Assembly: GCA_947589745.1 (NCBI GenBank)
Contig: CANQCS010000018.1
Location: 1 to 39,688 of the forward strand
Length of the DNA stretch: 39,688 nucleotides
Source of the DNA: an uncultured Oscillospiraceae bacterium
GTDB lineage: Bacteria > Bacillota > Clostridia > Oscillospirales > Oscillospiraceae
Direction of reading: 5' to 3'
Shown piece after piece: positions 6,331 to 38,108 of the stretch. The translations under genes and the position numbers were made by a program. The notes under the pieces were generated by a model that was not told the DNA's origin, did not search any database, and was given only the letters and a program-made list of their open reading frames with translations. The first letter of the stretch is position 1. The number at the start of each line of letters is the position of its first letter.

Positions 6331-6441
6331 ATTCTTTTTCTTGAAAGAAAAAGAATCAAAAAGAACTTTAATCTCGCTACCAAAACACTGCTATCCCCAT
6401 GTTTTCCGCACGGTAACGACGGATTCTTCTAATTGAAGAAT
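6331..6441 (+). repeat. Interspersed palindrome-headed repeat, copy 1
   Basis: Head palindrome at 6331-6356 (ATTCTTTTTCTTG, then its complement), then CAAAAAGAACTTTAA, a core starting TCGCTACCAAA and the tail CCGCACGGTAACGA. The last part holds a second small inverted repeat, ATTCTTC-N5-GAAGAAT (6423-6441). Unlike most copies it does not follow a gene on its own strand; it lies upstream of and antisense to the TetR gene. Confidence 0.85.
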
Positions 6442-6511
6442 ACATATCACTATACACGAAACCGGCGGAAAAGGAACGAGGGGTGGAAATTTCTTTCCCC
6501 GCGGATTACGA

Positions 6512-6544
6512 AGCGGCGGCGCCCCTTTTGGGGGACGCCGCCGC
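6512..6544 (-). terminator. Hairpin after purB
   Basis: A very GC-rich stem (AGCGGCGGCG with CCCC, paired with GGGG and CGCCGCCGCT, one unpaired base) lies about 40 bp past the purB stop. Only a weak T-run (TTCGT) follows on the minus strand, so termination strength is uncertain. Confidence 0.5.
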
Positions 6545-6584
6545 TCAGGCTGTCAAAAGGGCTGGCGGCCTTTTCCGGTATCTA

Positions 6585-8021
6585 TCACACGTTCAGCTCC
6601 GCGTGGATGGACTCGTCGGGGTAGCGGGCCAGGATGGGGGCGATCTCCTCCGCCAGGAACTCCGTCACCTGGCTGGGGGCCCGGCCCACGTACTTCTCCG
6701 GGGCCATCTGCTGGCCGATCTCCTCCCGGCTCAGGGGGAACCGGTCGTCGGCCACGATGCGGTCGATGAGGTCGTTGGCCCCGCCCTCCAGCTTCACCTT
6801 CCGGGCGGCGGCGTGGGAGTGCTCCCGCAGGGCCTCGTGGAGCTCCTGCCGGTTGCCGCCCCGCTTTACGGCCTCCATCATGATGTTCTCCGTGGCCATG
6901 AAAGGCAGCTTCTCCATCACCCGGCGGCGGACCACACGGGGGTACACCACCAGCCCGGCGGTGACGTTGATGTAGATTTCCAGGATGGCGTCCACGGCCA
7001 GGAACGCCTCGGACACGGCCAGGCGCTTGTTGGCGCTGTCGTCCAATGTCCGCTCGAACCACTGGGTGGCGGCGGTCATGGCGGGGTTCACGGCGTCCTG
7101 GATGACGTACCGGGCCAGGGCGCAGATGCGCTCGGAGCGCATGGGGTTCCGCTTGTAGGGCATGGCCGAGGAACCGATCTGGCTCTTCTCGAAAGGCTCC
7201 TCCATCTCCTCAAAGGACTGGAGCAGCCGCATGTCCGTGGCGAACTTGCAGGCGGACTGGGCGAAGCCGGAGAGGACGGAGAGGAAATAGGCGTCGGTCT
7301 TCCGGGAGTAGGTCTGGCCGGAGACGGCCACGCACCGATCGAAGCCCATCTGCTCCGCCACCAGCCGCTCCAGCTCCTTGACCTTCCCCTCGTCGCCCTC
7401 GAAGAGCTCCATGAAGCTGGCCTGGGTGCCGGTGGTGCCCTTGGCGCCCCGAAGGCGGAGGGCCGAGAGCTGGTACTCCAGGTTCTCAATGTCCATGACC
7501 AGCTCGTTCATCCACAGGGTGGCCCGCTTGCCCACGGTAGTGAGCTGGGCGGGCTGGAGGTGGGTGTAGGCCAGGCAGGGCAGGTCCTTATACTCTTCGG
7601 CAAAGGCGGACAGGTTCCGCAGCACCTGGACCGCCTTCCGCAGCACCAGCTTGGCCGCGTCCCGGAGGATCAGCACGTCGGTGTTGTCCCCCACGTAGCA
7701 GGAGGTGGCCCCCAGGTGGATGATGGCCTCGGCGTCTGGGCACTGCTGGCCGTAGGCGTAGACGTGGCTCATCACGTCGTGGCGGACCTGCTTCTCCCGG
7801 GCCTCGGCCACGTCGAAGTTGATGTCCTCCGCGTGGGCCTCCAGCTGGGCGATCTGCTCCTCCGTGATGTTGAGGCCCAGCTGCCGCTCGGCCCTGGCCA
7901 GGGCGATCCACAGCCGCCGCCAGGTGCGGAACTTGTTGTTGTCGGAAAAGAGGTACTGCATCTCCCGGCTGGCGTAGCGGGTGGACAGGGGGGAGATATA
8001 ACCGTTGCGGTCGCGTTCCAT
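6585..8021 (-). CDS. purB: Adenylosuccinate lyase
   Basis: The 478-residue enzyme splits adenylosuccinate to AMP and SAICAR to AICAR, two steps of purine synthesis, in the cytosol. The lyase signature GSSAMPYKRNPMRSE contains the flexible-loop catalytic serine, and HLGATSCYVGDNTDVL holds the substrate-binding histidine/Thr-Ser block. The layout resembles the longer, eukaryote-like ADSL branch seen in many Clostridia. The start is set at ATG 8021 (MERDRNGYIS) because GGAGAG sits seven to eight bases upstream; an in-frame ATG at 8066 would add fifteen residues without a ribosome site. The gene is monocistronic, divergent from leuS, and has its own promoter at 8092-8120. No other purine gene is in the window. 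Confidence 0.95.
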   Translation of the reverse strand: MERDRNGYISPLSTRYASREMQYLFSDNNKFRTWRRLWIALARAERQLGLNITEEQIAQLEAHAEDINFDVAEAREKQVRHDVMSHVYAYGQQCPDAEAIIHLGATSCYVGDNTDVLILRDAAKLVLRKAVQVLRNLSAFAEEYKDLPCLAYTHLQPAQLTTVGKRATLWMNELVMDIENLEYQLSALRLRGAKGTTGTQASFMELFEGDEGKVKELERLVAEQMGFDRCVAVSGQTYSRKTDAYFLSVLSGFAQSACKFATDMRLLQSFEEMEEPFEKSQIGSSAMPYKRNPMRSERICALARYVIQDAVNPAMTAATQWFERTLDDSANKRLAVSEAFLAVDAILEIYINVTAGLVVYPRVVRRRVMEKLPFMATENIMMEAVKRGGNRQELHEALREHSHAAARKVKLEGGANDLIDRIVADDRFPLSREEIGQQMAPEKYVGRAPSQVTEFLAEEIAPILARYPDESIHAELNV

Positions 8022-8091
8022 AGAAGCTCTCCTTCGCTTTTGATCGTGTTTCGTTCTGTGTTCCATCGTGCCGGTACGAACTGTGCCTTAC

Positions 8092-8120
8092 AGTATATCA
8101 GCACCGCGGGCCGGAGGCAA
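8092..8120 (-). promoter_or_regulatory. purB promoter
   Basis: Minus strand: TTGCCT (8115-8120), 17-base spacer, TATACT (8092-8097). This gives a leader of about 65 bases before ATG 8021 and supports the shorter start. No purine riboswitch or PurR box was recognised. Confidence 0.75.
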
Positions 8121-8185
8121 TATCCAGTCTGTAAATTTTTCAGGGAAACACGCCCCGAAAAAAGGGAAAAAGTCCCGTCTGCCCC

Positions 8186-8214
8186 TTGCAATCAGCAGGA
8201 AAATCCGATATAAT
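8186..8214 (+). promoter_or_regulatory. leuS promoter
   Basis: TTGCAA (8186-8191), 17-base spacer and perfect TATAAT (8209-8214). The resulting leader is only about 45 bases, too short for a T-box, so leuS here does not seem to be controlled by uncharged tRNA-Leu. Confidence 0.85.
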
Positions 8215-8267
8215 GTCTCGGAAACATTGCGGGCAGCCGCCCGGAGATCATAAGAAAACAAGAAAGT

Positions 8268-11080: not shown

Positions 11081-11839
11081 ATGGCAGAGCGCATCACCAG
11101 CCGCAGCAACCCGCTGATGGCCCACATCCGCAAGCTGGCGTCCTCCCGGTCCTACCGCCGGGAGAGCGGCGAGTACCTGGGCGACGGCATGAAGCTGCTC
11201 CGGGAGGCCGTCCGCTGGGGCGCGGCGCTGACCGTGGTGGTGTACACCGCCGGGACCGCCCTGCCGGAGATGCCCGGCGGCGTCCGCGCCGTGGAGGTGC
11301 CGGAGGACCTGATGCGGTCCGTCAGCCCCATGGAGTCCCCCCAGGGCGCCCTGTTCCTGGCGAAGCTGCCACCGGAGCGGCCGGAGGGGCCCCTCACCGG
11401 ACGCCGCTATCTGGCCCTGGAGGGGGTCCAGGACCCGGGCAACGTGGGCACCATCCTCCGCACCGCCGACGCCTTCGGCGCCGACGGGCTGCTGCTCCTG
11501 CCCGGCTGCGCGGACCTCTACAACCCCAAGACCGTCCGGGCGTCCATGGGCGCGGTGTTTCGGCTGCCCGCCTGGAGCTGCTCCCTGGAGCAGCTGGATA
11601 TTTTGGCCCGTGAGGTGAATCTGCCCATTTTCGGCTCCGCCCTCCGGGAGGACGCGGTGGACCCGCGGGAGGCGGACCTGACATGCGGCATCATGCTCAT
11701 CGGCAGCGAGGGCCGGGGGCTGAGCCGGGAGGCGCTGTCTCTCTGCGGCGGGGTGCTCCGCATCCCCATGCGAGAGCGGTGCGAGTCCCTGAACGCCGCC
11801 ATCGCGGCAGCGGTGCTGCTTTGGGAAGGCTACCGATAA
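11081..11839 (+). CDS. SpoU/TrmH-family RNA 2'-O-methyltransferase
   Basis: The 252-residue protein has the three SPOUT motifs of 23S rRNA or tRNA guanosine 2'-O-methylases: motif 1 LEGVQDPGNVGTILRTADAF, motif 2 GIMLIGSEGRGLS and motif 3 IPMRERCESLNAAIAAAVLL, which builds the knotted SAM site. The N-terminal 90 residues match the SpoU substrate-binding domain (SRSNPLMAHIRKLASSRSYR). The start ATG 11081 is fixed by AAGGAGG at 11068-11074. An ATG-less extension upstream to 11000 is not supported. Firmicutes often carry this gene near pheST or alone; the exact target nucleotide is not visible. It precedes dprA with a repeat copy between them. Confidence 0.9.
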   Translation: MAERITSRSNPLMAHIRKLASSRSYRRESGEYLGDGMKLLREAVRWGAALTVVVYTAGTALPEMPGGVRAVEVPEDLMRSVSPMESPQGALFLAKLPPERPEGPLTGRRYLALEGVQDPGNVGTILRTADAFGADGLLLLPGCADLYNPKTVRASMGAVFRLPAWSCSLEQLDILAREVNLPIFGSALREDAVDPREADLTCGIMLIGSEGRGLSREALSLCGGVLRIPMRERCESLNAAIAAAVLLWEGYR

Positions 11840-11850
11840 GATAGAGGTAT

Positions 11851-11939
11851 CGTCACCGGGCCGCCAGAGTAAGTACCGGCACCGTCCCGGTAGCGAGAGT
11901 AAAGTTCTTTTTGATCCTTTTTCTTTCAAGAAAAAGAAT
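11851..11939 (-). repeat. Interspersed palindrome-headed repeat, copy 2
   Basis: On the minus strand: head ATTCTTTTTCTTG..GAAAAAGGAT, CAAAAAGAACTTTA, TCGCTACC and a divergent core, ending CGGTGACG. It lies between two plus-strand genes and is therefore antisense to both, ending against the dprA ribosome site. The head arm has one G:T-type change. Confidence 0.8.
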
Positions 11940-11952
11940 GGAGGAGGTCGTT

Positions 11953-13205: not shown

Positions 13206-13220
13206 AATCAGGAGGAAAGA

Positions 13221-15566
13221 ATGGCAACAACGAGTCTCGTGATCGTGGAGTCTCCCGCCAAAGCAAAGACCATCGGCAAGTACCTGGGTCCCGGCTACGA
13301 GGTCAAGGCCTGCATGGGCCATCTGCGGGACCTGCCCAAGAGCACCCTGGGCGTGGACGTGGACAACGACTTTGAGCCGGTCTACCGCCCCATCAAGGGC
13401 AAAGAGGACATCATCAACGACCTGAAAAAGTCCGCCAAGAAGAGCGATGTGGTCTATCTCGCCACCGACCCGGACCGGGAGGGGGAGGCCATCAGCTGGC
13501 ACCTGAAGGAGCTGCTGGGCCTCAACGACAGCAAGGCCCTTCGGGTCACCTTCAACGAGATCACCAAGCGGGTGGTCTCCGAGTCCATCCAGAAGCCCCG
13601 GGAGATCGACCAGAGCCTGGTGGACGCCCAGCAGGCCCGGCGCATCCTGGACCGCATCGTGGGCTACCAGCTCTCTCCCCTGCTGTGGAAAAAGATCCGC
13701 CGGGGGCTCTCCGCCGGGCGGGTCCAGTCCGTGGCCACCCGGATGGTCTGCGACCGGGAGCACGAGATCGCCGCCTTCCAGCCCCAGGAGTACTGGTCCC
13801 TGGACGTGCGCCTCAGCACCGACGGCTCCGAAAAGAACAGCTTCCTCGCCCGGTACCACGGGGAGAACGGCAAAAAAAAGGACCTCAACAGCCGTGAGGA
13901 CGTGGACGCGGTCATCGCCGCCGTGGAGGGAAAGCCCTTTACCGTCAGGTCCCTCAAGCGGCAGGACAAGCAGCGCTCCCCCTCCGCCCCCTTCACCACC
14001 TCCACCCTCCAGCAGGAGGCCAGCCGGAAGCTGAGCATGACCCCCCGGCGGACCATGGCCATTGCCCAGCAGCTCTATGAGGGCGTGGATATCTCCGGCG
14101 AGGGCACCGTGGGCCTTATCACCTACATGCGTACCGACTCCCTGCGCCTCAGCGACGAGGCGGTGGCGGCGGCCAGGAGCTTCATCCTGGGCCGCTACGG
14201 GAAGGACTACTGCCCGCCCAAGTCCCGGGTCTACAAGGCCAAGTCCAACGCCCAGGACGCCCACGAGGCCATCCGGCCCAGCAATGTGGAGCTGACCCCG
14301 GAGAAGGTCCGGGGGGACCTGACGGCGGAGCAGTACCGGCTGTACCGCCTTATCTGGAGCCGGTTCGTGGCCTGCCAGATGAGCAACGCCGTGTACGACG
14401 GCATCTCCCTGGAGGCGGAGGCGGCGGGACACACGTTCCGGGCCTCCAGCAGCAGCCTCAAGTTCTCCGGCTACACCGCCGTCTACGAGGAGGGCCGGGA
14501 CGATGAGAAGGAGGACAAAGAGGACAAGGAGGAAAAGCTCCCGCCCCTCACCGAGGGCCAGAGCCTGCAAAAGCTGGGCTTTCAGCCGGACCAACACTTC
14601 ACCCAGCCCCCGGCCCGGTACACCGACGCCACCCTGATCCGGGCCCTGGAGGAGAACGGCATCGGCCGGCCCTCCACCTACGCCCCCACGGTCAGCACCA
14701 TCCTGGACCGGGAGTACGTGGTCAAGGAGGGCAAGTACCTGAAGACCACACCACTGGGCGAGACCGTCAACCAGCTCATGTGCGATAAGTTCGCCGACAT
14801 CGTGGACACCGGCTTCACCGCCAGCATGGAGAAGGAGCTGGACGACGTGGAGGGCGGCGGCAAGGAGTGGCGGAAGGTCCTCCACGAGTTCTACGACCCC
14901 TTCAAGGCCGAGATGGAGCGGGCGGAGAAGGACCTGGAGGGCGTGCGCCTGAAGGTGCCCGACGAGGAGTCCGACGAGGTCTGCGATGTCTGCGGTCGGA
15001 GGATGGTGGTCAAGAGCGGCCGGTTCGGCCGGTTCCTGGCCTGTCCGGGATACCCGGAGTGCACCTTCACCAAGCCCCTGGTGGTGGCCATGCCGGGGCG
15101 GTGCCCCAAGTGCGGCGGGCGCATCCTCAAGAAGACCTCCCGCAACGGCTATACCTACTACGGCTGTGAGAACAACAGCAATAAGGAAGAGGACAAGCGC
15201 TGCGACTTCATGACCTGGGACATCCCCGTGGCGGACGACTGCCCGGTGTGCGGCCAGACCATGTTCAAGAAGGCCGGCAAGGGCTTTAAGAAGCCCTACT
15301 GCATCAACGAGCAGTGCGCCAACTTCACCCCGGAGGACAAGCGGGGCGGCTACCGCCGCAAGGCCAAGGAGACCAAGGAGGGCGACGCCGCCGAGGCCAA
15401 GGCCGAGGAAACTGCCTCCGCCAAGACCGCGTCGAAAAAGCCCGCTGCCAAGGCGGCCTCCAAGACCGCCGGGAAAAAGACAGCGGCCAAGGACACCGCC
15501 GCGGCGAAGAAGCCTGCCGCCAAGAAGACCACTACAAGAAAAGCCGCCGCGAAAGCAGAAGCCTAA
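13221..15566 (+). CDS. topA: DNA topoisomerase I (type IA)
   Basis: The 781-residue enzyme relaxes negative supercoils. It has the TOPRIM domain at the N-terminus (IVESPAKAKTIGKYLG; ATDPDREGEAISWHL with the metal acidic residues), the active-site tyrosine Y302 in GLITYMRTDSLRLS, and the IA core to about residue 560. The C-terminal part carries three zinc-ribbon modules (CDVCG..CPGYPEC; CPKCG..C; CPVCG..C) at about 585-710. After these comes a 70-residue Lys/Ala tail similar to histone H1-like tails, which probably gives non-specific DNA binding. ATG 13221 has AGGAGG nine bases upstream. A degenerate copy of the interspersed repeat starts at the stop codon. Confidence 0.97.
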   Translation: MATTSLVIVESPAKAKTIGKYLGPGYEVKACMGHLRDLPKSTLGVDVDNDFEPVYRPIKGKEDIINDLKKSAKKSDVVYLATDPDREGEAISWHLKELLGLNDSKALRVTFNEITKRVVSESIQKPREIDQSLVDAQQARRILDRIVGYQLSPLLWKKIRRGLSAGRVQSVATRMVCDREHEIAAFQPQEYWSLDVRLSTDGSEKNSFLARYHGENGKKKDLNSREDVDAVIAAVEGKPFTVRSLKRQDKQRSPSAPFTTSTLQQEASRKLSMTPRRTMAIAQQLYEGVDISGEGTVGLITYMRTDSLRLSDEAVAAARSFILGRYGKDYCPPKSRVYKAKSNAQDAHEAIRPSNVELTPEKVRGDLTAEQYRLYRLIWSRFVACQMSNAVYDGISLEAEAAGHTFRASSSSLKFSGYTAVYEEGRDDEKEDKEDKEEKLPPLTEGQSLQKLGFQPDQHFTQPPARYTDATLIRALEENGIGRPSTYAPTVSTILDREYVVKEGKYLKTTPLGETVNQLMCDKFADIVDTGFTASMEKELDDVEGGGKEWRKVLHEFYDPFKAEMERAEKDLEGVRLKVPDEESDEVCDVCGRRMVVKSGRFGRFLACPGYPECTFTKPLVVAMPGRCPKCGGRILKKTSRNGYTYYGCENNSNKEEDKRCDFMTWDIPVADDCPVCGQTMFKKAGKGFKKPYCINEQCANFTPEDKRGGYRRKAKETKEGDAAEAKAEETASAKTASKKPAAKAASKTAGKKTAAKDTAAAKKPAAKKTTTRKAAAKAEA

Positions 15567-15631
15567 TTGAAAAAGGTCTTTCATACCGTTGCTACGGCGC
15601 TGCGATGCCCGTATTCTGCGCACGATAACGA
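15566..15631 (+). repeat. Interspersed repeat, copy 3 (degenerate, head lost)
   Basis: Starting with the last A of the topA TAA, the sequence AAAAAGGTCTTT, a GCGCTGCGATGCC core and the tail GCGCACGATAACGA align with the common repeat. The palindromic head is missing, as if deleted down to TAATTGAAAAAG. Confidence 0.6.
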
Positions 15632-15653
15632 GAGATCGTTCAAGAGGTTTTCT

Positions 15654-15863
15654 ATGAAAATTTTGGGAGAGCGTCTTTTCGAGCTGAGAAAGAGCCGGAA
15701 ATTAACGAGGCAGATGGTGTCCGAGGCTATTTCTATCTCCGCCAAATCCTATGAGCGGTATGAGAATGATGAGCGTGACCCAGCTGCGCCTGTGATCGTG
15801 GCGCTTGCGGATTATTTTGGTGTTTCGACCGACTACCTGCTGGGTAGAACAGACGAGCCGTAG
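15654..15863 (+). CDS. Small XRE-family helix-turn-helix regulator A
   Basis: This 69-residue protein is a single XRE-type DNA-binding domain: LFELRKSRKLTRQMVSEAIS forms helices 1-3 and SAKSYERYENDERDP the recognition helix and turn. It has no sensor or dimer domain. ATG 15654 has AAGAGG eight bases upstream; a longer frame from 15567 runs through the repeat and is not believed. Its DNA is less GC-rich than its neighbours, which may point to transfer. The last 21 residues are identical to those of the next gene although the first 48 differ strongly. Function beyond DNA binding is unknown. Confidence 0.85.
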   Translation: MKILGERLFELRKSRKLTRQMVSEAISISAKSYERYENDERDPAAPVIVALADYFGVSTDYLLGRTDEP

Positions 15864-15893: not shown

Positions 15894-16106
15894 ATGACAG
15901 AGATTTTTAAGGTCCGGCTGAAAGAACTCCGAAAAGGCCATGGCGTGACCCAGCGGGAAATGGCGGAGTATTTGAGGATCTCCACCAGAGGCTATCAGCG
16001 CTATGAGGTCGGGGACGGATATCCCGATGTTCCTGGGTTAGTGGCGCTTGCGGACTACTTTGGTGTTTCGACCGACTACCTGCTGGGGAGAACGGATGAA
16101 CCGTAG
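15894..16106 (+). CDS. Small XRE-family helix-turn-helix regulator B
   Basis: This 70-residue protein is again a lone XRE domain (RLKELRKGHGVTQREMAEYL, then STRGYQRYEVGDGYPD). The ribosome site is poor (GGGAAAAG), so expression may be low. The final 66 bases differ from those of gene A at six positions, all synonymous, while the rest of the two genes is clearly divergent. The pair looks like a tandem duplication with later conversion of the 3' end, or like strict selection on that helix. A strong two-way terminator follows. No antitoxin or toxin partner can be seen next to either gene. Confidence 0.85.
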   Translation: MTEIFKVRLKELRKGHGVTQREMAEYLRISTRGYQRYEVGDGYPDVPGLVALADYFGVSTDYLLGRTDEP

Positions 16107-18068: not shown

Positions 18069-18153
18069 GGGAGCGTTCCCGAGTGGCCAAAGGGGGCAGA
18101 CTGTAAATCTGTTGTCGACGACTTCGGTGGTTCGAATCCACCCGCTCCCACCA
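18069..18153 (+). tRNA. tRNA-Tyr (anticodon GTA)
   Basis: An 85-base class II tRNA: acceptor GGGAGCG/CGCTCCC, anticodon loop CTGTAAA with GTA, a long variable arm (GTCGACGACTTC) and T-arm GGTGGTTCGAATCCACC, discriminator A, encoded CCA. The CCA end also forms the first bases of the terminator stem that follows. Confidence 0.96.
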
Positions 18154-18198
18154 AGAAAATGCCGCTGTGCCGCAAGCACAGCGGCATTTTCTTGGTGG
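18148..18198 (+). terminator. tRNA operon terminator fused to the tRNA-Tyr 3' end
   Basis: A 23-bp perfect stem whose left arm starts at the tRNA discriminator/CCA (18148) and whose right arm ends at 18198. The GC core GCCGCTGTGC / GCACAGCGGC is followed by ATTTTCTT. The overlap with the mature tRNA end is unusual. Confidence 0.85.
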
Positions 18199-18312
18199 AA
18201 GCGGGCAGCGCCCGGCCGCCCGCGCAGTGGTGCGGCCCTGTAGACTTCCCGACCTCCCCGTCCTGTTGGGGGCAGAACAGAGGGGGGATCTCGCCCGTTT
18301 TCAAGCATATCT

Positions 18313-18443: not shown

Positions 18444-19196
18444 ATGAGCTTTGGACAGAGACTGCGGGAGCGGCGGAAGGAGCTGGGCATGAGCCAGGGG
18501 GAACTGGCCAGAGCCTTGGGCGTCAGCCTCTCCGCCGTCAGCAACTACGAGAGCGGGCAGAACGCCATGCGGGAGGACGTGCTCCTGCGGCTGCTCCAGG
18601 TGCTGGACGTGGAGCCCAACTACCTCTATCAGGACTTTATGAGCGGCAAGGTCTTCGTCTGCTCGGTGGAGGAGCGGCGGCTGGTGGAGAAGTACCGCCG
18701 CCTGCGCACCACGGGCCGCCAGGCCCTCCAGTCGGTGGCGGACGCCCTCACCTCCTACCAGTCGGATCTGGAGGAGGAGCGCCCCAAGCCGGAGATCCGG
18801 CAGATCCCCCTGTACCGCAGTCCGGCGGCGGCGGGATTCATGTCGCCGGTGTTCGGGGAGGACTTCGACTACATCGACGTCACCGGGGATGTGCCGCCCG
18901 GCGCGGAGTTCGCCGTGCGCATCCAGGGGGACTCCATGGAGCCCTACATCATGGACGGCTCCATCGCCTACGTCAACCGGGACCCGCTGTCCTCGGGGGA
19001 TGTGGGCATCTTCTGCGTGGACGGGGAGCTGCTGTGCAAGCAGTATGTCCGGGACGTGCTGGGCATGACCTACCTGTTCTCCCTGAACCGGAAGCGGGCC
19101 AACATGGACGTGATCCTGCCCCGGGACAGCGGACGCAGCGTGGTGTGCTTTGGCCGTGTCCTGCTGCCCTTCCGCCCAGAGATCCCGGGGATGTAA
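18444..19196 (+). CDS. XRE-family repressor with self-cleaving S24 peptidase domain
   Basis: The 250-residue protein joins an N-terminal XRE domain (residues 4-60: RLRERRKELGMSQGELARAL, VSLSAVSNYESGQ) to a C-terminal LexA/CI-type S24 domain. The catalytic pair is visible as Ser164 in GDSMEPYI and Lys199 in ELLCKQYV, and the cleavage site as Ala130-Gly131 in PAAAGF. Such repressors cut themselves when RecA filaments form, lifting repression after DNA damage. ATG 18444 has AGGAGGTG upstream. No phage genes surround it, so it may serve the host or be a relic of a lost element. A LexA-like box lies upstream and a repeat copy begins at its stop codon. Confidence 0.9.
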   Translation: MSFGQRLRERRKELGMSQGELARALGVSLSAVSNYESGQNAMREDVLLRLLQVLDVEPNYLYQDFMSGKVFVCSVEERRLVEKYRRLRTTGRQALQSVADALTSYQSDLEEERPKPEIRQIPLYRSPAAAGFMSPVFGEDFDYIDVTGDVPPGAEFAVRIQGDSMEPYIMDGSIAYVNRDPLSSGDVGIFCVDGELLCKQYVRDVLGMTYLFSLNRKRANMDVILPRDSGRSVVCFGRVLLPFRPEIPGM

Positions 19197-19284
19197 TTCT
19201 TTTTCTTGAAAGAAAAAGAATCAAAAAGAACTTTAACATCGCTCTCAAAGCGTTGCGATACCTACATTTTCCGCACGGTGACGA
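19196..19284 (+). repeat. Interspersed palindrome-headed repeat, copy 4
   Basis: Begins with the last A of the TAA stop: ATTCTTTTTCTTG..GAAAAAGAAT, CAAAAAGAACTTTAA, TCGCTCTCAAAGCGTTGCGAT, ACCTACATTTTCCGCACGG and TGACGA. It is the closest to a consensus copy and runs in the direction of the gene it follows. Confidence 0.9.
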
Positions 19285-19313
19285 GGGATGGTTCCCACTG
19301 ACAGAGCATAAAA

Positions 19314-24240: not shown

Positions 24241-24306
24241 ATACTCTCCCCCTTCAGTTCCGGGTACTCCTATGATAGCAGTTTTCATACGATTTTTCTA
24301 TTAGCA

Positions 24307-24322
24307 CAATGACACATCATTG
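24307..24322. promoter_or_regulatory. Inverted repeat upstream of the response regulator gene
   Basis: CAATGA-CACA-TCATTG is a perfect 6-bp inverted repeat 67-82 bp before the regulator start and upstream of a weak promoter (TAGAAA-N17-TATCAT on the minus strand). It may be a control site; nothing else in the gap is recognised. Confidence 0.35.
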
Positions 24323-24389
24323 CCGCGCGGGAAACACAAAAATTGCAGCGCATTGGCGGCAAGGTCAATATTCTTTTTAATTCGCTTCC

Positions 24390-24560
24390 TTACCAGGCCG
24401 CAATCGTCCCGTCGGTCCGGGGTTCCGTGCCGCCTGCCTTCATCATGTCCAGCCCCACCTGGGAGGCGATGGGCGAGGTGGAGGCGGCCATGCCCTTTTT
24501 GGCGTAGACCACGCTCCGGCGGGAGGGGTAGGCGTATTTCAGTGGGTCAAAAAGAGGCAT
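24390..24560 (-). pseudogene. Gamma-glutamyltransferase remnant with internal deletion
   Basis: A 56-codon frame starts at ATG 24560 behind AAGGAG and ends TAA at 24390. Residues 1-44 (MPLFDPLKYAYPSRRSVVYA, then KKGMAASTSPIASQVGLDMM and KAGG) look like the mature N-terminus of gamma-glutamyltransferase, where GMAASTSPIASQVGLDMMKA normally leads into GNAIDAA. Residues 42-56 (AGGTEPRTDGTIAAW) look like the extreme C-terminus of the same enzyme. The roughly 450-500 residues between, including the catalytic Thr, are gone. The join at AGG suggests deletion between short repeats. The reading frame and ribosome site are intact, so a short peptide may still be made. Confidence 0.7.
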
Positions 24561-27350: not shown

Positions 27351-27560
27351 ATGCCCTTGACAATGGCGCAGCCCGGCGAGTACAACCTCATCAAGAAGGT
27401 GGGGGGAAAGCCGGAGACCCGGCAGTTTCTGGAGAACCTCGGCTTCATCGCTGGAGGACAGGTGACCGTCATCAATAAAGTGGGCGGCAGCCTGATCGTG
27501 GAGGTCAAGGGGACCCGCATCGCGGTGAACCAGGATATGGCCGCCAAAATTATGATTTGA
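27351..27560 (+). CDS. feoA: FeoA-domain protein (first copy)
   Basis: The 69-residue SH3-like protein (PLTMAQPGEYNLIKKVGGKP, ETRQFLENLGFIAGGQVTVI, GTRIAVNQDMAAKIMI) belongs to the FeoA family, cytosolic partners that modulate the FeoB iron channel. ATG 27351 is favoured since AAGGAGG is seven bases upstream; ATG 27345 is only one base from that site. The gene is the first of a feoA-feoA-feoB-peptide cluster and lies under an iron-box-like promoter. A copy of the interspersed repeat begins at its stop. Confidence 0.93.
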   Translation: MPLTMAQPGEYNLIKKVGGKPETRQFLENLGFIAGGQVTVINKVGGSLIVEVKGTRIAVNQDMAAKIMI

Positions 27561-27646
27561 TCCGTTTTTCTGGAAGAAAAAGGATTTTTAAGGGCTTTAC
27601 TGTCGCTGTCAAAGCGTTGCGGCACCTCATTTTTGTGCGGCGGCGA
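27560..27646 (+). repeat. Interspersed palindrome-headed repeat, copy 5
   Basis: Begins with the last A of the feoA TGA. The head reads ATCCGTTTTTCTGG..AAGAAAAAGGAT, so the outer arm has changed from ATTC/GAAT to ATCC/GGAT on both sides. The core GTCAAAGCGTTGCGG and a decayed tail follow. It lies inside the feo cluster. Confidence 0.8.
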
Positions 27647-28050: not shown

Positions 28051-30270
28051 ATGAGTACCAGAATCGCCCTTGCCGGCAATCCCAACACCGGCAAGACGAC
28101 CTTGTTCAATGCCCTGACGGGCACCAACCAGTACGTGGGCAACTGGCCCGGCGTCACGGTGGAGAAAAAAGAGGGCAAGTTGAAGAACCAGAAGGACGTC
28201 ACCGTCACGGACCTGCCCGGCATCTACTCCCTGTCCCCCTACACCCTGGAGGAGGTGGTGGCCCGGAACTACCTCATCGGGGAGCGCCCCGACGTCATCC
28301 TCAACATCATCGACGGCACCAACCTAGAGCGGAACCTGTACCTGACCACCCAGCTGATGGAACTGGGCATCCCCGTGGTGGTGGCCGTCAACATGATGGA
28401 CGTGATCCGGAAGAACGGCGACAAGCTGGACACCAGGAAGCTCTCCGGCACCCTGGGCTGTCCGGTGTATGAGATCTCCGCCCTGAAGGGCACCGGCATC
28501 GACGAGGCCGCCAAGGGCGCCGTGGCCGCCGCCGGAAAGGAGGCCGCGCCCCCGCCCCACACCTTCTGCGGCCCCGTGGAGCACGTCCTGGCCCACATCG
28601 AGGAGCTGGCCCTCCACGACCTGCCGGAGAACCAGCAGCGCTGGTACGCCGTGAAGCTCTTTGAGCGGGACAGCAAGGTGGGCGAGCAGTTGAAGCTGAA
28701 CAGCGCCACCCTCAAGCACATCGAGGGCGACATCACCGCCTGCGAGGCCGAACTGGACGACGACGCCGAGAGCATCATCACCGCCGAGCGGTACAACTGG
28801 ATCGGCAAGATCATCGGCAGCTGCTACAAGCGGAAGAACCAGGGCGGCCTGACCGTCTCCGACCGGATCGACCGGATCGTCACCAACCGGTTCCTGGCCC
28901 TGCCCATCTTCGCCGCCGTCATGATCCTGCTGTACACCATCGCCATGGGCACCTCCCCGGCGGCCCTGTTCGACGGCTCCTTCCGGGAGGGCGAGCCCTG
29001 GGGCATCGGCATCGGCTCCTGGGGCACCGACTGGGCCAACGACGTGCTCTTCGGCGAGATCGTCCCCGGCTTCTTTGACTCCGTCCTGACCGCTGTCGGC
29101 GTGGCGGAGGGCAGCTGGCTCTACGGCCTGATCCAGGACGGCATTGTGGCCGGTGTGGGCGCGGTGCTGGGCTTCGTGCCCCAGATGCTGGTGCTGTTCT
29201 TCCTGCTGTGCATCCTGGAGGACGTGGGCTACATGGCCCGGATCGCCTTCATTATGGACCGGATCTTCCGCCGCTTCGGCCTGAGCGGCAAGAGCTTCAT
29301 CCCCATGCTGGTGGCCACCGGCTGCGGCGTGCCCGGCATCATGGCCTCCCGCACCATCGAGCAGGACCGTGACCGGAAGATGACGGTCATGACCACCGCC
29401 TTCATGCCCTGCGGCGCCAAGCTGCCCATCATCGGCCTCATCGCCGGCGCCCTCTTCGGCAACTCCCCCTGGATCGCGGCCTCCGCCTACTTCCTGGGTA
29501 TGGGCTCTATCATTGTCTCCGGCATCATGCTGAAGAAGTTCAAGGCCTTTGCCGGTGAGCCCGCCCCCTTCGTCATGGAGCTGCCCGCCTACCACAAGCC
29601 CAGCGCCGGCAACGTGCTGCGGGGCACCTGGGAGCGGGGCTGGAGCTTCATCAAGCGGGCCGGAAGCGTCATCGTGATCGCCTCCATCCTCATCTGGTTC
29701 CTCCAGGCCTTCGGCTTTGAGAACGGCGGCTTTGGCCTGGTAGATGACAACGACTTCTCCCTGCTGGCCTATGTGGGCAAGGCCTTTGCCTGGATCTTCA
29801 TTCCCCTGGGCTTCGGCGACTGGAAGCCCGCCGTGGCGACTATCGGCGGGCTGGTGGCCAAGGAGAACGTGGTGGGCATGTTCGGTATCCTCTACCACTA
29901 CGCCGGAGAGCTCAGCGAGAACGGCGACGAGCTGTGGGCCATGGTGGCCGCGGACTACACCGCCCTCTCCGCTTTCTCCTTCATGACTTTCAACCTGCTC
30001 TGCGCCCCCTGCTTCGCGGCCATGGGCGCCATCAAGCGGGAGATGAACAATACCAAGTGGACCCTGGCCGCCATCGGCTATATGTGCCTGTGGGCCTATG
30101 TGGTGGCGCTCATCATCTACCAGCTGGGCCTGCTGTTCACCGGCGGCGGCTTCGGGATCTTCACCGTGGTGGCCATCGCCCTGCTGGCCGGTATCCTGTA
30201 CCTGGTGTTCCGGCCCTACCGGGAGAGCAGCACCCTGGCGGGCAGCGTCCGCTCCGTCAGCCGCGCCTGA
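28051..30270 (+). CDS. feoB: Ferrous iron transporter FeoB
   Basis: The 739-residue protein imports Fe2+. The N-terminal G domain has G1 AGNPNTGKTTLFNAL (residues 8-22), switch TGTNQYVGNWPGVTVEKKEG, G3 DLPGIYSLSPY and G4 NMMDVI, followed by the guanine-dissociation-inhibitor helices and a membrane part of about eight helices with two Gate motifs (ATGCGVPGIMASRTI and the later GGLVAKENVVGMFG). ATG 28051 is preferred; AAGGAGA lies eleven bases upstream. The C-terminus lacks a fused FeoC; instead a separate Cys-rich peptide gene follows. A repeat copy begins at its stop. Confidence 0.96.
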   Translation: MSTRIALAGNPNTGKTTLFNALTGTNQYVGNWPGVTVEKKEGKLKNQKDVTVTDLPGIYSLSPYTLEEVVARNYLIGERPDVILNIIDGTNLERNLYLTTQLMELGIPVVVAVNMMDVIRKNGDKLDTRKLSGTLGCPVYEISALKGTGIDEAAKGAVAAAGKEAAPPPHTFCGPVEHVLAHIEELALHDLPENQQRWYAVKLFERDSKVGEQLKLNSATLKHIEGDITACEAELDDDAESIITAERYNWIGKIIGSCYKRKNQGGLTVSDRIDRIVTNRFLALPIFAAVMILLYTIAMGTSPAALFDGSFREGEPWGIGIGSWGTDWANDVLFGEIVPGFFDSVLTAVGVAEGSWLYGLIQDGIVAGVGAVLGFVPQMLVLFFLLCILEDVGYMARIAFIMDRIFRRFGLSGKSFIPMLVATGCGVPGIMASRTIEQDRDRKMTVMTTAFMPCGAKLPIIGLIAGALFGNSPWIAASAYFLGMGSIIVSGIMLKKFKAFAGEPAPFVMELPAYHKPSAGNVLRGTWERGWSFIKRAGSVIVIASILIWFLQAFGFENGGFGLVDDNDFSLLAYVGKAFAWIFIPLGFGDWKPAVATIGGLVAKENVVGMFGILYHYAGELSENGDELWAMVAADYTALSAFSFMTFNLLCAPCFAAMGAIKREMNNTKWTLAAIGYMCLWAYVVALIIYQLGLLFTGGGFGIFTVVAIALLAGILYLVFRPYRESSTLAGSVRSVSRA

Positions 30271-30386
30271 TACTTTTTCCTGAAAGAAAAAGTATCAAAA
30301 AGAGCTTTAATATCGCTACCAAAGCGTTGCAATTTCTGCATTTTTCGCACGGTAACGTTATATTGTTTTTCATTGAAGAATAGTAT
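30270..30386 (+). repeat. Interspersed palindrome-headed repeat, copy 6
   Basis: Begins with the last A of the feoB TGA. Head ATACTTTTTCCTG..GAAAAAGTAT, CAAAAAGAGCTTTAA, TATCGCTACCAAAGCGTTGC, TTTTTCGCACGGTAACG and an end TTGAAGAATAGTAT shared with copies 1 and 8. It separates feoB from its small partner gene. Confidence 0.9.
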
Positions 30387-30416
30387 GATCTTTTCCGGCG
30401 TAAAGGAGGGATCCCT

Positions 30417-33918: not shown

Positions 33919-33952
33919 AAGGGGGCGCGCACCGTGCGGTGCGCGCCCCCTT
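33919..33952 (+). terminator. Terminator of the lipoprotein gene
   Basis: A 15-bp stem AAGGGGGCGCGCACC / GGTGCGCGCCCCCTT, loop GTGC, then TTGG. It lies 30 bp past the stop. Confidence 0.8.
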
Positions 33953-33973
33953 TGGCTGTCCCAAAAGCCAATG

Positions 33974-34020
33974 GCTTTTTGATATTTTTTCTTTCATAAA
34001 CATAAAAAAATATCAAAAGC
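33974..34020 (-). repeat. Palindrome related to the interspersed-repeat head
   Basis: Arms GCTTTTTGATATTTTTT (33974-33990) and AAAAAATATCAAAAGC (34005-34020). On the minus strand the part GAAAGAAAAAATATCAAAAAG matches, with few changes, the head of the interspersed repeat, but the body after it is different. The outer pair has become ATAT/ATAT. Confidence 0.6.
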
Positions 34021-34022
34021 TG

Positions 34023-34054
34023 AAAGGGCGCAGGCAGAACGCCTGCGCCCCTTT
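34023..34054 (-). terminator. Terminator downstream of argS
   Basis: Stem AAAGGGCGCAGGC / GCCTGCGCCCCTTT (one bulged C) with loop AGAAC; on the minus strand TTTCAGCTTTTG follows. It lies after repeat copy 7 and probably ends the murI-argS transcript. Confidence 0.7.
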
Positions 34055-34084
34055 GGATTTGCTTCTTCCATTTCGCTCCGCGCA

Positions 34085-34173
34085 TCGTTACCGTGCGGAA
34101 AATGCCGGTATCGCAGCGCTTTGAGAGCGATGTTAAAGTTCTTTTTGATTCTTTTTCTTTCAAGAAAAAGAAT
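34085..34173 (-). repeat. Interspersed palindrome-headed repeat, copy 7
   Basis: On the minus strand it begins with the last A of the argS TAA: ATTCTTTTTCTTG..GAAAAAGAAT, CAAAAAGAACTTTAA, CATCGCTCTCAAAGCGCTGC, and CCGCACGGTAACGA. Nearly identical to copy 4, and again in the direction of the gene it follows. Confidence 0.92.
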
Positions 34174-35918
34174 TACATCTTTTCCGGCGCGTCCACGCCC
34201 AGCAGGGCCAGGCCGTTCTTCAGCACGCTCCGGGTCTCGTCCGCCAGCTTCAGGCGGGCCAGCAGCACCGCGCTCTCCTCGCCCTTGATGCGGCAGGCGG
34301 TATAGAACCGGTGGAAACAGCCTGCCAAATCCACCAGGTAGCGGTTCAGATGGCTGGGGTCATAGTCCCGGGCCGCCAGGCGCAGCTCCTCGCAGAAAAG
34401 GGCCAGCTGCTTGATGAGGGCCTGCTCCGTCTCGCCGGAGAGCAGGGAGGTGTCCACGTCCGCCAGGGCCGGGACGGCGTACCCCTCGGCGGCCAGATTC
34501 CGGAGAAGGCTGCAGATCCGGGCGTGGGCGTACTCCACATAGTAGATGGGGTTCTCGCTGTCCTCCCGGACGGCCAGGCCCAGGTCGAAGTCCATCTGGG
34601 TGTCGGGCTTGGCGTTGAAGAACCAGCGGGCCGCGTCCACGGGCACCTCGTCCAGCAGGTCGCTGAGGGAGATGGCCTTGCCGGTGCGCTTGCTCATCTT
34701 CACCACCTCGCCGTCCCGCAGCAGCTTCACCAGCTGCATGAGGACGATGTCCAGCCGCCCGGTGCCGTCCAGCCCCAGGGCGTCCATGGCGCCCTTCAGC
34801 CGGGCCACGTGGCCGTGGTGGTCCGCGCCCCAGATGTTGATGACCCGGTCAAAGCCCCGCTTCTCGAACTTGTTGCGGTGGTAGGCGATATCGGCGGCGA
34901 AGTAGGTGTAGAAGCCGTTGGCCCGGCGGAGGACGTCGTCCTTCAGGTCCAGCTTCTTGATCTCCTTCTCACTCTTTCCCGCCTTGCGGTAGCCCTCCTC
35001 CAGGATGCGGCTGGTGGCCAGCCACAGGGCCCCCTCCTTCTCGTAGGTCCAACCCGCCTGGGTGAGCTTGTCCACGGTCTCGGCCACGTAGCCGCTCTCG
35101 TGGAGGGAGGACTCGAAGAACCACTGGTCATATTCGATCTTGTACTTGGCCAGGTCGCTCTTCATCTTGGGGATGTTCCGCTCCAGGCCGAAGGCGGCCA
35201 GGGCTGCGTGGCGCTCCGCCGTGGGGGTGTCCCGGTAGGCGTCGCCGTGGAGGTCATAGAACGCCTGGGCCAGCTCCCGGATATCGTCGCCGTGGTAGCC
35301 GTCCTCGGGGAAGGTCACCGCGTCCTCACCCAGGAGGATCTGGAGATACCGGGCCTCCAGAGAACAGGCGAACTTCTCGATCTGGTTGCCGGCGTCGTTG
35401 ACGTAGAACTCCCGCCACACATCGGCGCCGTTGGCCTCCAGCACGGAGGCCAGGGTGTCCCCCAGCACGCCGCCCCGGGCGTTGCCCATGTGCATGGGGC
35501 CGGTGGGGTTGGCGGAGACGAACTCCACCATGATCTTCTGGCCCTTCAGGTTGTCGGACCGGCCGTAGGCGGTGCCCTCCTGCTCCACCGCGTCCAGCAC
35601 GCCGGTGAACCAGTTGGGCGCCAGCCGGAAGTTCAGGAACCCGGCCCCCGCGATCTCGGCGGAGGCGAAGTAGCTGCCGGTCAGGTCCATCTCCTCCAGC
35701 AGGACCGACGCGATCTGCCGGGGGTTCATGCGCATGGCCTTGGCGGCGGCCAGCGCGAAGGTGGTGGTGTAGTCGCCGTTGCTCAGGTCCTTGGGGATCT
35801 CCACGTTGGCCCTGACGGCCACGCCGGCGGGCAGCCGCCCCTTCTCCGCGGCGGCGGCGTAGGCGGCGTTGGTCAGCGCCAGGACCTGGTCCTTGGCGTT
35901 TTGGATCATATTGCTCAT
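34173..35918 (-). CDS. argS: Arginyl-tRNA synthetase
   Basis: The 581-residue class I enzyme charges tRNA-Arg. It has the N-terminal Add1 domain (residues 1-115), the HIGH-type motif in SANPTGPMHMGNARGGVLGD, a KMSK motif in GEVVKMSKRTGKAISLSD and the C-terminal anticodon-binding DALR domain (about 460-581). The start ATG 35918 overlaps the DUF1934 stop by four bases, so the two are coupled, as in many Firmicutes. A repeat copy begins exactly at its stop codon. Confidence 0.96.
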   Translation of the reverse strand: MSNMIQNAKDQVLALTNAAYAAAAEKGRLPAGVAVRANVEIPKDLSNGDYTTTFALAAAKAMRMNPRQIASVLLEEMDLTGSYFASAEIAGAGFLNFRLAPNWFTGVLDAVEQEGTAYGRSDNLKGQKIMVEFVSANPTGPMHMGNARGGVLGDTLASVLEANGADVWREFYVNDAGNQIEKFACSLEARYLQILLGEDAVTFPEDGYHGDDIRELAQAFYDLHGDAYRDTPTAERHAALAAFGLERNIPKMKSDLAKYKIEYDQWFFESSLHESGYVAETVDKLTQAGWTYEKEGALWLATSRILEEGYRKAGKSEKEIKKLDLKDDVLRRANGFYTYFAADIAYHRNKFEKRGFDRVINIWGADHHGHVARLKGAMDALGLDGTGRLDIVLMQLVKLLRDGEVVKMSKRTGKAISLSDLLDEVPVDAARWFFNAKPDTQMDFDLGLAVREDSENPIYYVEYAHARICSLLRNLAAEGYAVPALADVDTSLLSGETEQALIKQLALFCEELRLAARDYDPSHLNRYLVDLAGCFHRFYTACRIKGEESAVLLARLKLADETRSVLKNGLALLGVDAPEKM

Positions 35919-36358
35919 ATCGTTTCTCTCGTCCTCTCCCGTATCCGTATTTTCACCAGGTTCTCTCCCACCACCCGGTGGTCCACCGCCACAGAGTAGC
36001 CCAGCTCCAGCACCCCGCCCCGCTCGTTGATCCGGTGGCGCAGGGAGGTGGCGGTGACGTCCACCAGCATGGCCCCCCAGGGCGTCTCATAGAAGGAGCT
36101 GTGGGGCCGCCCCTTCAGAAAGAGCATATTGGACGAGATGGTGCCGGTGCGCTCCAGCTCCACCGCGTCCTCCCGGATGGTAAAGCGGGTGACGGTGCCC
36201 TCCATGCCGGTCAGCTCCGTCTCCCGGTACTCCAGGATGACCGCGCCGTCCCCGGCCAGGGACATGGTCCCCTCGGTCATCAGCTCCGTAACGTCCGGGT
36301 CGGCGTCCTCGTAGCGCTGCTCGCCCCGGACATAGATCACAACATTTTTCTCCGGCAT
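35915..36358 (-). CDS. DUF1934 (YwiB-like) protein
   Basis: The 147-residue protein matches the DUF1934 family, small calycin-like beta-barrels coded before argS across Firmicutes (YwiB in Bacillus). Landmarks: KNVVIYVRGEQRYEDADPD, ILEYRETELTGMEGTVTRFT, SSFYETPWGAMLVDVTATSL and LELGYSVAVDH. The biochemical job is not known. ATG 36358 has AAAGGA five bases upstream; ATG 36364 is too close to that site. Translationally coupled to argS. Confidence 0.88.
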   Translation of the reverse strand: MPEKNVVIYVRGEQRYEDADPDVTELMTEGTMSLAGDGAVILEYRETELTGMEGTVTRFTIREDAVELERTGTISSNMLFLKGRPHSSFYETPWGAMLVDVTATSLRHRINERGGVLELGYSVAVDHRVVGENLVKIRIRERTRETI

Positions 36359-36478
36359 AGTCATCCTTTATCATATGATTTTCAATCGGAAGGATCTATC
36401 GCCGCCCGTGGGCCGGCCATAGGGCGGCCTGCGGCGAAGCCTGCCGCCGGAAAAGGCCGCAGACCACTTCCGACGCTC

Positions 36479-37291
36479 TCAGTATTTTGTAATGTCCACC
36501 TGCCCCACCTGGCCGGTGACGTCCTCCCCCAGGAACAGGGAGGCCAGCCGCTGGAAGTCGGCGGCCCGGTCGCTGGTGTAATACTCGGCGGCGCCGGTCC
36601 CCTCCGGGGCCAGGGCGTCCCGCTCCTGGAGCAGGGCGCGGAGGGCGGCGGCGGACTCGGCCCCCACATCCACCAGGGTCACCTCCGGGCCCATGACATT
36701 GCCGATGACCTCCGCCAGCAGGGGGTAGTGGGTGCAGCCCAGCACCAGGGTGTCCACGCCCTTCTCTCGCATGGGGGCCAGGTACTGCTCCGCCACGGTC
36801 TCGATGACGATATCGCCGGGGCGGCAGCGGCCCTCCTCCACCAGGGGCACAAAGAGGGGGCAGGCCAGGCTGGTGACCTCCAGCGCCTCGTCCAGCCGCC
36901 GGAAGGCCCGCTCGTAGGCCCCGCTGCCGATGGAGGCCCGGGTGGCGATGACGCCCACCCGTCGGTTCCGGGTCAGGGCGGCGGCGCTGCGGACGGCGGG
37001 CTCCACCACGCCGATGATGGGGATGTCGTTCTCCGCCGCCAGCACATCCAGGCAGTTGCTGCTGACCGTGCCGCAGGCCACCACGATGGCCTTCAGGTCG
37101 AAGCTCCGCAGAAACCGGGTGTCCTGCCGGGCGTACCGGAGGATGGTGTCCCGGCTGCGGTTGCCGTAGGGGACGCGGGAGGTGTCGCCGAAGTACACGA
37201 TGTCCTCCGCGGGCATGATGGCCCGCAGGCGGCGCACCGCGGTGAGGCCCCCGAAGCCGGAATCAAAGACGCCGATGGCGCGCTGGTCCAA
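36479..37291 (-). CDS. murI: Glutamate racemase
   Basis: The 270-residue enzyme makes D-glutamate for peptidoglycan. The first half has FDSGFGGLTAVRRL, YFGDTSRVPYGNRS and catalytic Cys73 in VVACGTVSSN; the second has the partner Cys in LVLGCTHYPLL. The usual family motif after the first Cys is CNTAS, here CGTVS. The TTG at 37291 is taken as start since AAGGAGG lies eight bases before it; the GTG at 37318 lies upstream of that site and would add nine residues. It has its own promoter and precedes the DUF1934-argS pair by 120 bp, in which only weak GC dyads were seen. Confidence 0.93.
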   Translation of the reverse strand: MDQRAIGVFDSGFGGLTAVRRLRAIMPAEDIVYFGDTSRVPYGNRSRDTILRYARQDTRFLRSFDLKAIVVACGTVSSNCLDVLAAENDIPIIGVVEPAVRSAAALTRNRRVGVIATRASIGSGAYERAFRRLDEALEVTSLACPLFVPLVEEGRCRPGDIVIETVAEQYLAPMREKGVDTLVLGCTHYPLLAEVIGNVMGPEVTLVDVGAESAAALRALLQERDALAPEGTGAAEYYTSDRAADFQRLASLFLGEDVTGQVGQVDITKY

Positions 37292-37344
37292 GGCAAATTC
37301 CTCCTTTTCGTCCGGCACGGTGCCAGGCGGCAGATAGCTTTACC

Positions 37345-37373
37345 ATTGTACTATGATTTGACTGGGATAACAA
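37345..37373 (-). promoter_or_regulatory. murI promoter
   Basis: Minus strand: TTGTTA (37368-37373), 17-base spacer, TACAAT (37345-37350). Confidence 0.7.
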
Positions 37374-37407
37374 GTAAAAATTTGGGCTTTTTGCCCTGCA
37401 TTTTCTG

Positions 37408-37436
37408 TGGAATTTTCCGTGGGAGTCTGCTATACT
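37408..37436 (+). promoter_or_regulatory. Candidate promoter of the 37583 gene
   Basis: Extended -10 TGC-TATACT (37431-37436) with a weak -35 TGGAAT (37408-37413, 17-base spacer). The leader of about 140 bases contains a GC-rich dyad but nothing recognised. Confidence 0.5.
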
Positions 37437-37582
37437 GTCCTTACTGATACCATTCCCCGAGAGGGCCCCGGCCTCGGACGCCCTCTGCCCGCCGCCCCGG
37501 TCCGGCCCCCGGCGGCGGAACACCCTTTCCGGCCGGAGCACGTATGATGATTATGTAGTATCCCGAAAGGAGGCCTGGTGGC

Positions 37583-37993
37583 ATGAAGCTGCATCTGACT
37601 GAAAAACAATTTCGACGTCTGCTGGATCTGGTGTACATAGGCAACTGGGTGCTCAACTCCACCCGGGAGAATGATCGGATCAAGGATTACGACCAGGTGG
37701 AGAGTCTGGTATTCTCCCACTGCCTGGACCACGGTATGTCGTCCCTGGTGGAGCTGTACAACGGGGAGATCATCCCCTCCCGGGCGTTTGCCGAGGGCGG
37801 CATCCACGAGGCCATCATGGCCTATGAGGACGAGATGTTCTTCGAGATCCTGGCCGAGGAGCTGGCCCTGCGGGACCTGGACGCGGACCGGGCCACGGAG
37901 GAGAACTACGACGAGGTCATGGAGCGCATGGAACAGTACATGGGCGAGTTTGAGGCCCACGGTACCGACCATATCAGCGTGGAGCTGGACTGA
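37583..37993 (+). CDS. Small acidic protein of unknown function
   Basis: The 136-residue protein is rich in Glu and Asp and predicted mostly helical: KLHLTEKQFRRLLDLVYIGN, VLNSTRENDRIKDYDQVESL, EDEMFFEILAEELALRDLDA. No known domain is recognised. ATG 37583 has AAAGGAGG upstream, and codon use is like that of the neighbours, so the gene is real. It is a single-gene unit between murI (divergent) and a LysR gene (convergent). A repeat copy begins with the last base of its stop. Confidence 0.8.
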   Translation: MKLHLTEKQFRRLLDLVYIGNWVLNSTRENDRIKDYDQVESLVFSHCLDHGMSSLVELYNGEIIPSRAFAEGGIHEAIMAYEDEMFFEILAEELALRDLDADRATEENYDEVMERMEQYMGEFEAHGTDHISVELD

Positions 37994-38108
37994 TACTTTT
38001 TCTTGAAAGAAAAAGTATCAAAAAGAACTTTATCCTCGCTCTCAAGGCGTTGCGATTCCTACATTTTCCGCACGGTAACGAAGTGCACTTTTCATGAGAG
38101 AATAGTAT
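37993..38108 (+). repeat. Interspersed palindrome-headed repeat, copy 8
   Basis: Begins with the last A of the TGA stop: ATACTTTTTCTTG..GAAAAAGTAT, CAAAAAGAACTTTA, TCGCTCTCAAGGCGTTGCGAT, TACATTTTCCGCACGGTAA and an end GAGAATAGTAT. Same outer arm pair (ATAC/GTAT) as copy 6. Confidence 0.92.

Follow-up and report, generated by a model that had tools for sequence, protein, structure and literature searches.

Why should copies of a short repeat begin, again and again, on a stop codon's final base? The question arises from a 39,688-nt stretch of DNA from an uncultured Oscillospiraceae bacterium (assembly GCA_947589745.1, contig CANQCS010000018.1; the whole stretch is called the window below), in which a sequence-only reading had listed eight copies of a 65-117 bp repeat, six of them starting on the final A of a stop codon and running in the direction of the gene. 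We conclude that the repeat is probably a 114-nt miniature inverted-repeat transposable element (MITE) of the IS630 type, which takes TNA (N = any base) as its target, owes its preference for stop codons in the sense direction mainly to insertion, and is likely moved by an IS630-family transposase of the same genome. The element is flanked by duplicated TNA triplets, has a partner with similar ends, is present in one species at sites that lack it in others, and lies on stop codons in excess in the sense direction.

Copies on stop codons

The eight listed repeats are real, scoring 52-115 bits against a covariance model made from these same window copies, and at a threshold of 45 bits or more the window holds nine, the additional one being a diverged minus-strand copy at about 24286..24406 (45 bits) that lies off stops and has TGA as its 3' TNA. 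The genome comprises 4.05 Mb in 252 contigs, of which 1.53 Mb was sampled (the window plus stretches L031-L070 and L087-L126). A first pass over the genome gave 1339 candidates, and all of the 150 that were scored passed the covariance model. Using a full-unit profile made from 48 copies, we identified 177 non-overlapping copies in the sample, a density that is a biased estimate because many stretches were picked around model hits. Part of the stretches are mostly consecutive pieces of large contigs, with some end points placed at hits; the remainder were picked largely around model hits, stop position playing no role in the choice. Genes were called with a simple codon-score script.

Among the 160 sampled copies with a 5' end, 56 have their left TNA exactly on a same-direction stop codon, a phase beyond chance, as had been supposed from the window. 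Nine copies are found at offset +13, five at -2, and at most two at every other single offset. The 56 occupied stops are 36 TGA, 20 TAA and no TAG, with a TGA:TAA ratio that mirrors the genome sample (603 TGA, 357 TAA and 151 TAG). Both ends were recognised in 73 copies, and 31 of these full copies are on stops compared with 6.9% of the TNA sites considered (p = 2e-17); that the repeat runs with its gene holds here too, 26 of the 31 being sense and five antisense (p = 2e-4). Downstream of same-strand genes, the stop itself holds 56 copies, whereas the following 60 nt, with 2.35 available TNA sites per gene, hold ten that are TNA-flanked, or 18 when every flank is counted. When only convergent gaps are considered, in which an insertion should do least harm, 28 of 43 copies are at stops where 11.8% would be expected (p = 3e-16). 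Antisense copies occur at ordinary rates, with five at stops and seven within the next 60 nt.

Copies from other species were examined in two sets that overlap in some genomes. In the first, drawn from stretches picked around model hits, 14 of 26 copies are at stops, and in the second, for which the search pattern demanded a left TNA, 18 of 50; among 27 full copies from other species, 12 are sense and one is antisense at stops. The tabulation of stop offsets that the sequence-only reading had proposed gave an excess at offset zero and a strand bias in the own-genome sample and in relatives alike. Away from stops, TAA is favoured over TTA by 7:0 (p = 0.016), so the orientation bias at TAA stops is partly intrinsic. 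For TGA alone, counting copies with identical duplications, orientation is 11:3 at stops versus 7:10 elsewhere (p = 0.067), which is not significant by itself.

Element structure and target duplication

Extending the alignment beyond the 3' border originally drawn gave the layout TNA-TACTTTTTCTTGAAAGAAAAAGTATCAAAAAGAACTTTA...CGCACGGTAACG...GAATAGTA-TNA. In 53 of 68 full copies the two triplets enclose 114 nt, making the unit longer than most copies in the initial list. The left end is a near-perfect hairpin. Terminal inverted repeats are present in imperfect form: TACTTTTTCTT on the left is matched, in inverted orientation and with differences, by a right end reading TACTATTCTTC or TACTATTCTCC inward (also given as TACTATTCT(T/C)C). 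Hairpin 1 is nearly invariant, with 1.0-2.6% divergence versus about 12.6% mid-unit. At 114 nt, without coding capacity and with 177 copies in 1.53 Mb, the unit is as short, non-coding and numerous as a MITE. The boundary was at first misread: the stop-codon A that had been taken as the first base of the repeat belongs to the 3-bp target duplication and closes it.

To assess this duplication we removed the five full copies without a left TNA, leaving 68. The same N occurs on both sides in 47 of these 68, compared with 19.6 +/- 3.6 in shuffled pairs and with 47 reached in none of 20,000 shuffles; because right ends were recognised by a GTA-TNA rule, the right-hand TNA in this comparison is given by construction and only N is free. 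In other species the two sides agree in 20 of 29 TNA-TNA copies (8.1 expected). The remaining 21 of the 68 pairs are mismatched, with TGA or TCA on the left in 19, and are compatible with later change of one side. In the window, the full copy on the feoB stop (30268..30388, plus strand) lies between TGA at 30268-30270 and TGA at 30386-30388.

Relatives have these sites without the insert. No such element is present at the feoB stop in the 14 relatives with a readable feoB 3' end, most of which have a short leader between the stop and the next gene. It is likewise absent from the argS stop in the 18 relatives with a readable 3' end, the own genome being the sole carrier among 19 loci, and in 18 of 18 of these relatives argS stops after the same Met codon. 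Related genomes thus differ by insertion at both genes, and the target duplications together with the relatives lacking the insert indicate insertion at pre-existing stops. This speaks against the earlier suggestion that the repeat supplies stop codons, as do the absence of TAG and the genome-like proportion of TGA to TAA among the occupied stops. The other suggestion made at the time, that a mobility process targets stop codons, fits the duplications, the empty sites, the stop excess, the sense bias and the transposase partner described below.

A likely IS630-family transposase partner

The route to a candidate partner was an end without the element body, which led to copies of an IS630-family transposase. 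The own genome contains 16 matches to the C-terminal 119 residues of an IS630-type transposase, many of them cut by contig ends. The DDE half matches NF033545 at 132.7 bits (cut-off 100) and PF13358 at 82 bits, and the front half gives winged helix-turn-helix matches. The reading frame changes between the halves, and seven consecutive A mark the point where they meet (L287, L290 and L298), an arrangement which suggests that the transposase may be made by programmed frameshifting.

The right end of this insertion sequence (IS) reads TACTAATCTTCAATAAAAAC inward, or relatives of TACTAATCTTCAATAAAAAC, and the own IS right ends, searched without a flank condition, have TTAGTA-TNA in nine of nine cases (1 TGA, 2 TTA and 6 TAA). 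In L260 the left end reads TGA-TACTATTCTCCAATAAGAAG; a promoter-like stretch comes next, and then the transposase start. A related element in another genus (L298), in which both ends are present, has TAA on both sides. The target duplications and an IS630-family partner with similar ends are the grounds for calling the repeat an IS630-type MITE, and judging from these sequence matches the IS630-family transposase of the same genome is what most likely moves it. The element would then be non-autonomous and mobilised in trans by the transposase. Insertion takes place at a TNA, whose three bases are duplicated. Since TAA and TGA are TNA words, insertion on a stop leaves the gene whole, with the stop kept on the left and the downstream leader intact on the right.

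Two other transposase types were considered as partners and rejected: PF01609 transposases have seven matches, with no matching end pair at the seven loci and two single weak pattern matches only (in L085 and L086), and DDE_Tnp_4 has no match in the own genome. Inverted end pairs with equal TNA, 0.5-4 kb apart, number six in the own sample; the two longest (L095 and L069) have no transposase among the reading frames listed. Such pairs are absent from 20 small own contigs, and ten were found in relatives.

Two IS630 copies in the own genome carry an internal deletion, one at L118:7360-7880 and the second at the left end of contig C38 (L297). The deletion point in L297 is occupied by a 30-nt palindrome resembling the left hairpin of the element, and such MITEs may arise in this way, by internal deletion with a palindrome. 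At L290:1-128 the left end of an IS630 copy is replaced by other sequence, which we take to resemble the 3' end of a group II intron.

Insertion preference or selection

Off-stop copies (n = 37) are flanked by 59.5% GC in the 10 nt to the left versus 39.5% to the right (p = 0.0005), so the element recognises its target in a directional way. Composition as the only cause of the stop excess was rejected: the asymmetry is real, and a composition model trained on off-stop copies predicts a 1.25-fold excess at sense stops, compared with 18.6-fold observed. A weak oriented target preference, for GC-rich sequence on the left, AT-rich sequence on the right and TAA rather than TTA, is a contributor.

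Two readings do without an IS630-type MITE. A structural RNA or 3'-end element giving stops, terminators or mRNA ends could explain why hairpin 1 is nearly invariant, and the sequence-only reading had suggested that the repeat supplies mRNA 3' ends; we consider this very unlikely, given that the duplications and the empty sites in relatives speak for insertion at stops that already existed. A simple scan for a GC-rich hairpin with a T run found a terminator-like hairpin inside just two of the 56 sense stop copies, which does not bear out the suggested 3' ends and on which termination as the main role was rejected. Terminators lie behind 6 of 26 elements and, among the other genes, behind 165 of 1049 (p = 0.28). 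We see no support for the repeat acting as a terminator or donating stops. Terminator-like hairpins are visible after the copies at 19196 and 34173, in agreement with the earlier remark that terminators follow some copies, and a search of the window against Rfam at the gathering score matched two tRNAs only, leaving the repeat unmatched. A repetitive extragenic palindrome (REP) is the other candidate. REPs are mobilised by REP-associated tyrosine transposases (RAYTs), and an element of the REP/RAYT type, with a Y1 transposase as its mobilising enzyme, would account for a palindrome next to stops in many copies. We give this reading almost no credence, since Y1_Tnp (PF01797) has no match in the own genome, the same search being positive in 5 of 14 control genomes, and since the 3-bp duplications and the ends like those of an IS630-family element also argue against it.

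Selection acting on an IS630-type MITE is a serious rival to insertion preference. It is possible, though we doubt it, that the element enters any TNA and that positive selection rapidly retains sense copies abutting stops, for example if a hairpin at the stop alters translation termination or mRNA stability in the manner of REPs near Escherichia coli stops. Only sense copies lying exactly on stops are in excess, as positive selection would have it, and the genes hosting stop copies have slightly higher codon scores (p = 0.003), which selection could also yield; REPs located fewer than 16 nt from a stop reduce translation (PMC12306157). Positive selection would, however, predict enrichment of older copies, sharing between species or tighter conservation at stops. 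The share of stop copies per quartile of hidden Markov model (HMM) score, from best to worst, is 11, 15, 15 and 8 of 34, with no rise with divergence. Of 24 stop copies in relatives, six have an orthologue in the own sample, and a sense copy is common to none of the six, one of which has an antisense copy on the same stop (L045:7601-7719 versus L190:9468, in two species). Hairpin divergence is 2.6% in stop copies versus 1.0% elsewhere (p = 0.16), so the hairpin is not better conserved at stops, and the element body has no extra constraint in stop copies. Neutral insertion at TNA followed by purifying selection, with the stop as the only harmless TNA near a gene, is the less probable of the two selective accounts and in our view unlikely. 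It would suit the short ancestral gaps to the following same-strand gene in 5 of 13 measured cases (-4, 4, 18, 21 and 24 nt) and the scarcity of copies between divergent genes (5 of the 62 full TNA copies that have a neighbour on each side), but it predicts equal numbers of sense and antisense copies at stops where 26:5 was observed, and the excess remains in convergent gaps and against the next 60 nt. With terminator function, sharing between species and extra constraint all unsupported, a preference at the level of insertion is favoured, and we infer that the stop excess arises mainly by oriented target choice and not by selective retention.

Several observations weigh against an IS630-type MITE whose stop preference comes mainly from insertion. 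IS630-family elements duplicate a 2-bp TA, and the duplication here is TNA, 3 bp. The left flank is something other than TNA at 38 of 160 5' ends in the own sample, and the TNA on the right is fixed by the recognition rule. We found no own-genome IS copy with both ends intact, since contigs break in IS copies, and the match between IS and MITE is one of separate ends and fragments; the internally deleted copy in L118 has TAA on the left and TTA on the right. None of 16 IS ends examined is on a stop (12 have a gene called outside), so the stop preference may be the MITE's and not the transposase's, though the number is too small to decide. The composition model leaves most of the stop excess unexplained, and the slightly higher codon scores of host genes could equally come from selection.

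A bolder form of the insertion reading, which we put forward tentatively and think less likely than not, is that transposition itself reads gene direction, with IS630-type insertion steered onto in-frame stops in the sense orientation. Steering might depend on a feature of the hairpin end or on coupling to the termination of transcription or of translation. If this is true, the element fills the genome with many copies without breaking genes, and one landing precisely and directionally on stops would be a natural example of safe-site insertion. A TNA target in place of TA, with an IS630-family partner, is an unusual target rule. The question raised is whether DNA transposition finds the end of a reading frame or selection does so, and the case cautions that repeats phased to stop codons need not be regulatory elements.

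Distribution and related elements

Under strict filters and with at most 70 candidates per genome, model matches occur in 24 of 60 genomes. Besides the own genome, these are 23 of 24 congeners, and the 35 genomes from outside the genus have none. An exact 42-nt match was found in at least 49 stretches, from records titled Oscillospiraceae, Oscillibacter sp. or Clostridia bacterium, and phage and plasmid collections gave no match to the element. In a literature search covering titles and abstract openings, with most subscription journals uncovered, the matches listed contained neither a description of the repeat nor an IS630-type MITE with a TNA duplication or a sense-stop preference. We regard the combination of a TNA target with a strong oriented preference for stops as new for an IS630-type MITE.

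A group II intron reportedly resides in the groEL termination codon of Azotobacter; it too is a mobile element in a stop codon, but a splicing retroelement, whereas the element here is 114 nt of DNA. The closest known element is RUP of Streptococcus pneumoniae, a 107 bp MITE attributed to IS630-Spn1, entering TA-containing sites and densest 50-150 bp from genes (PMC2229807, PMC3049150). The two are alike in size, intergenic position, IS630-like ends and excess between convergent genes; the Oscillospiraceae element differs in duplicating TNA and in lying often exactly on stops in the sense direction. SPRITE, also of S. pneumoniae, is another small repeat near gene 3' ends (PMC3049150), but it resembles a terminator and has no established duplication or IS partner. 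REPs and bacterial interspersed mosaic elements (BIMEs) of E. coli are similar in being palindromes in many copies, part of them close to stops (PMC12306157), and REP-associated tyrosine transposases are named in the title of PMC2817692; the Oscillospiraceae element differs from them by its TNA duplications, its IS630-type partner and the lack of Y1_Tnp.

Window copies and other repeats

Within the window, the 5' boundary as first drawn is the last base of a same-direction stop in five of the nine copies (19196, 27560, 30270, 34173 and 37993). Apart from the feoB copy, these are a copy on the TAA stop of an XRE/S24 gene at 18444-19196 (19194..19301, plus strand, 115.4 bits, 3' end unrecognised), a diverged copy on the TGA stop of feoA at 27363-27560 (27558..27640, plus strand, 84.4 bits), a copy on the TAA stop of argS at 34173-35918 on the minus strand (34068..34175, minus strand, 112 bits, 3' end unrecognised) and a full copy at 37991..38110 (plus strand, 110.5 bits), which has TAA as its 3' TNA and sits on the TGA that ends the gene at 37583-37993; a Pfam search with this last gene gave no match. 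All five were among the six stop copies initially listed. The sixth, directly 3' of topA (15563..15643, plus strand, 52 bits), is no clear case: truncated at its 5' end and lacking the hairpin (it covers HMM positions 29-103), this remnant has no readable exact phase. Two further copies lie off stops: one at 6329..6442 (plus strand, 104.8 bits), upstream of a tetR-family gene at 5711-6301 on the minus strand, has TCA as its 5' TNA, and one at 11833..11941 (minus strand, 85.5 bits), between a SpoU-type methyltransferase gene and the next gene, has the 5' flank CCA.

The nine of 160 copies at offset +13 interrupt coding sequence, all in the single phase for which the element itself contributes an early TGA, and two of the nine have a left TNA. 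A different hairpin repeat, consisting of a palindrome, CAAAAGAAAAACTTT and a second hairpin, lies near the argS stop in four of the 18 relatives. In the relatives' stretches L129, L135 (the same site as L188), L138, L144 and L163 it follows the argS or feoB stop at a distance of 2 to about 30 nt, giving six matches at five sites in 0.6 Mb of relatives and none in the 1.53 Mb of the own genome. Positions 3550 and 7474 of L224 may represent another family of short elements, whose ends read TNA-TACT and then ATTATTACTCCGGCAA. In the window, adjacent small reading frames at 15735-15863 and 15978-16106 have a common 129-nt stretch with 78% identity, and a 30-bp inverted repeat at 18141-18205, 97% complementary, overlaps and follows the end of tRNA-Tyr.

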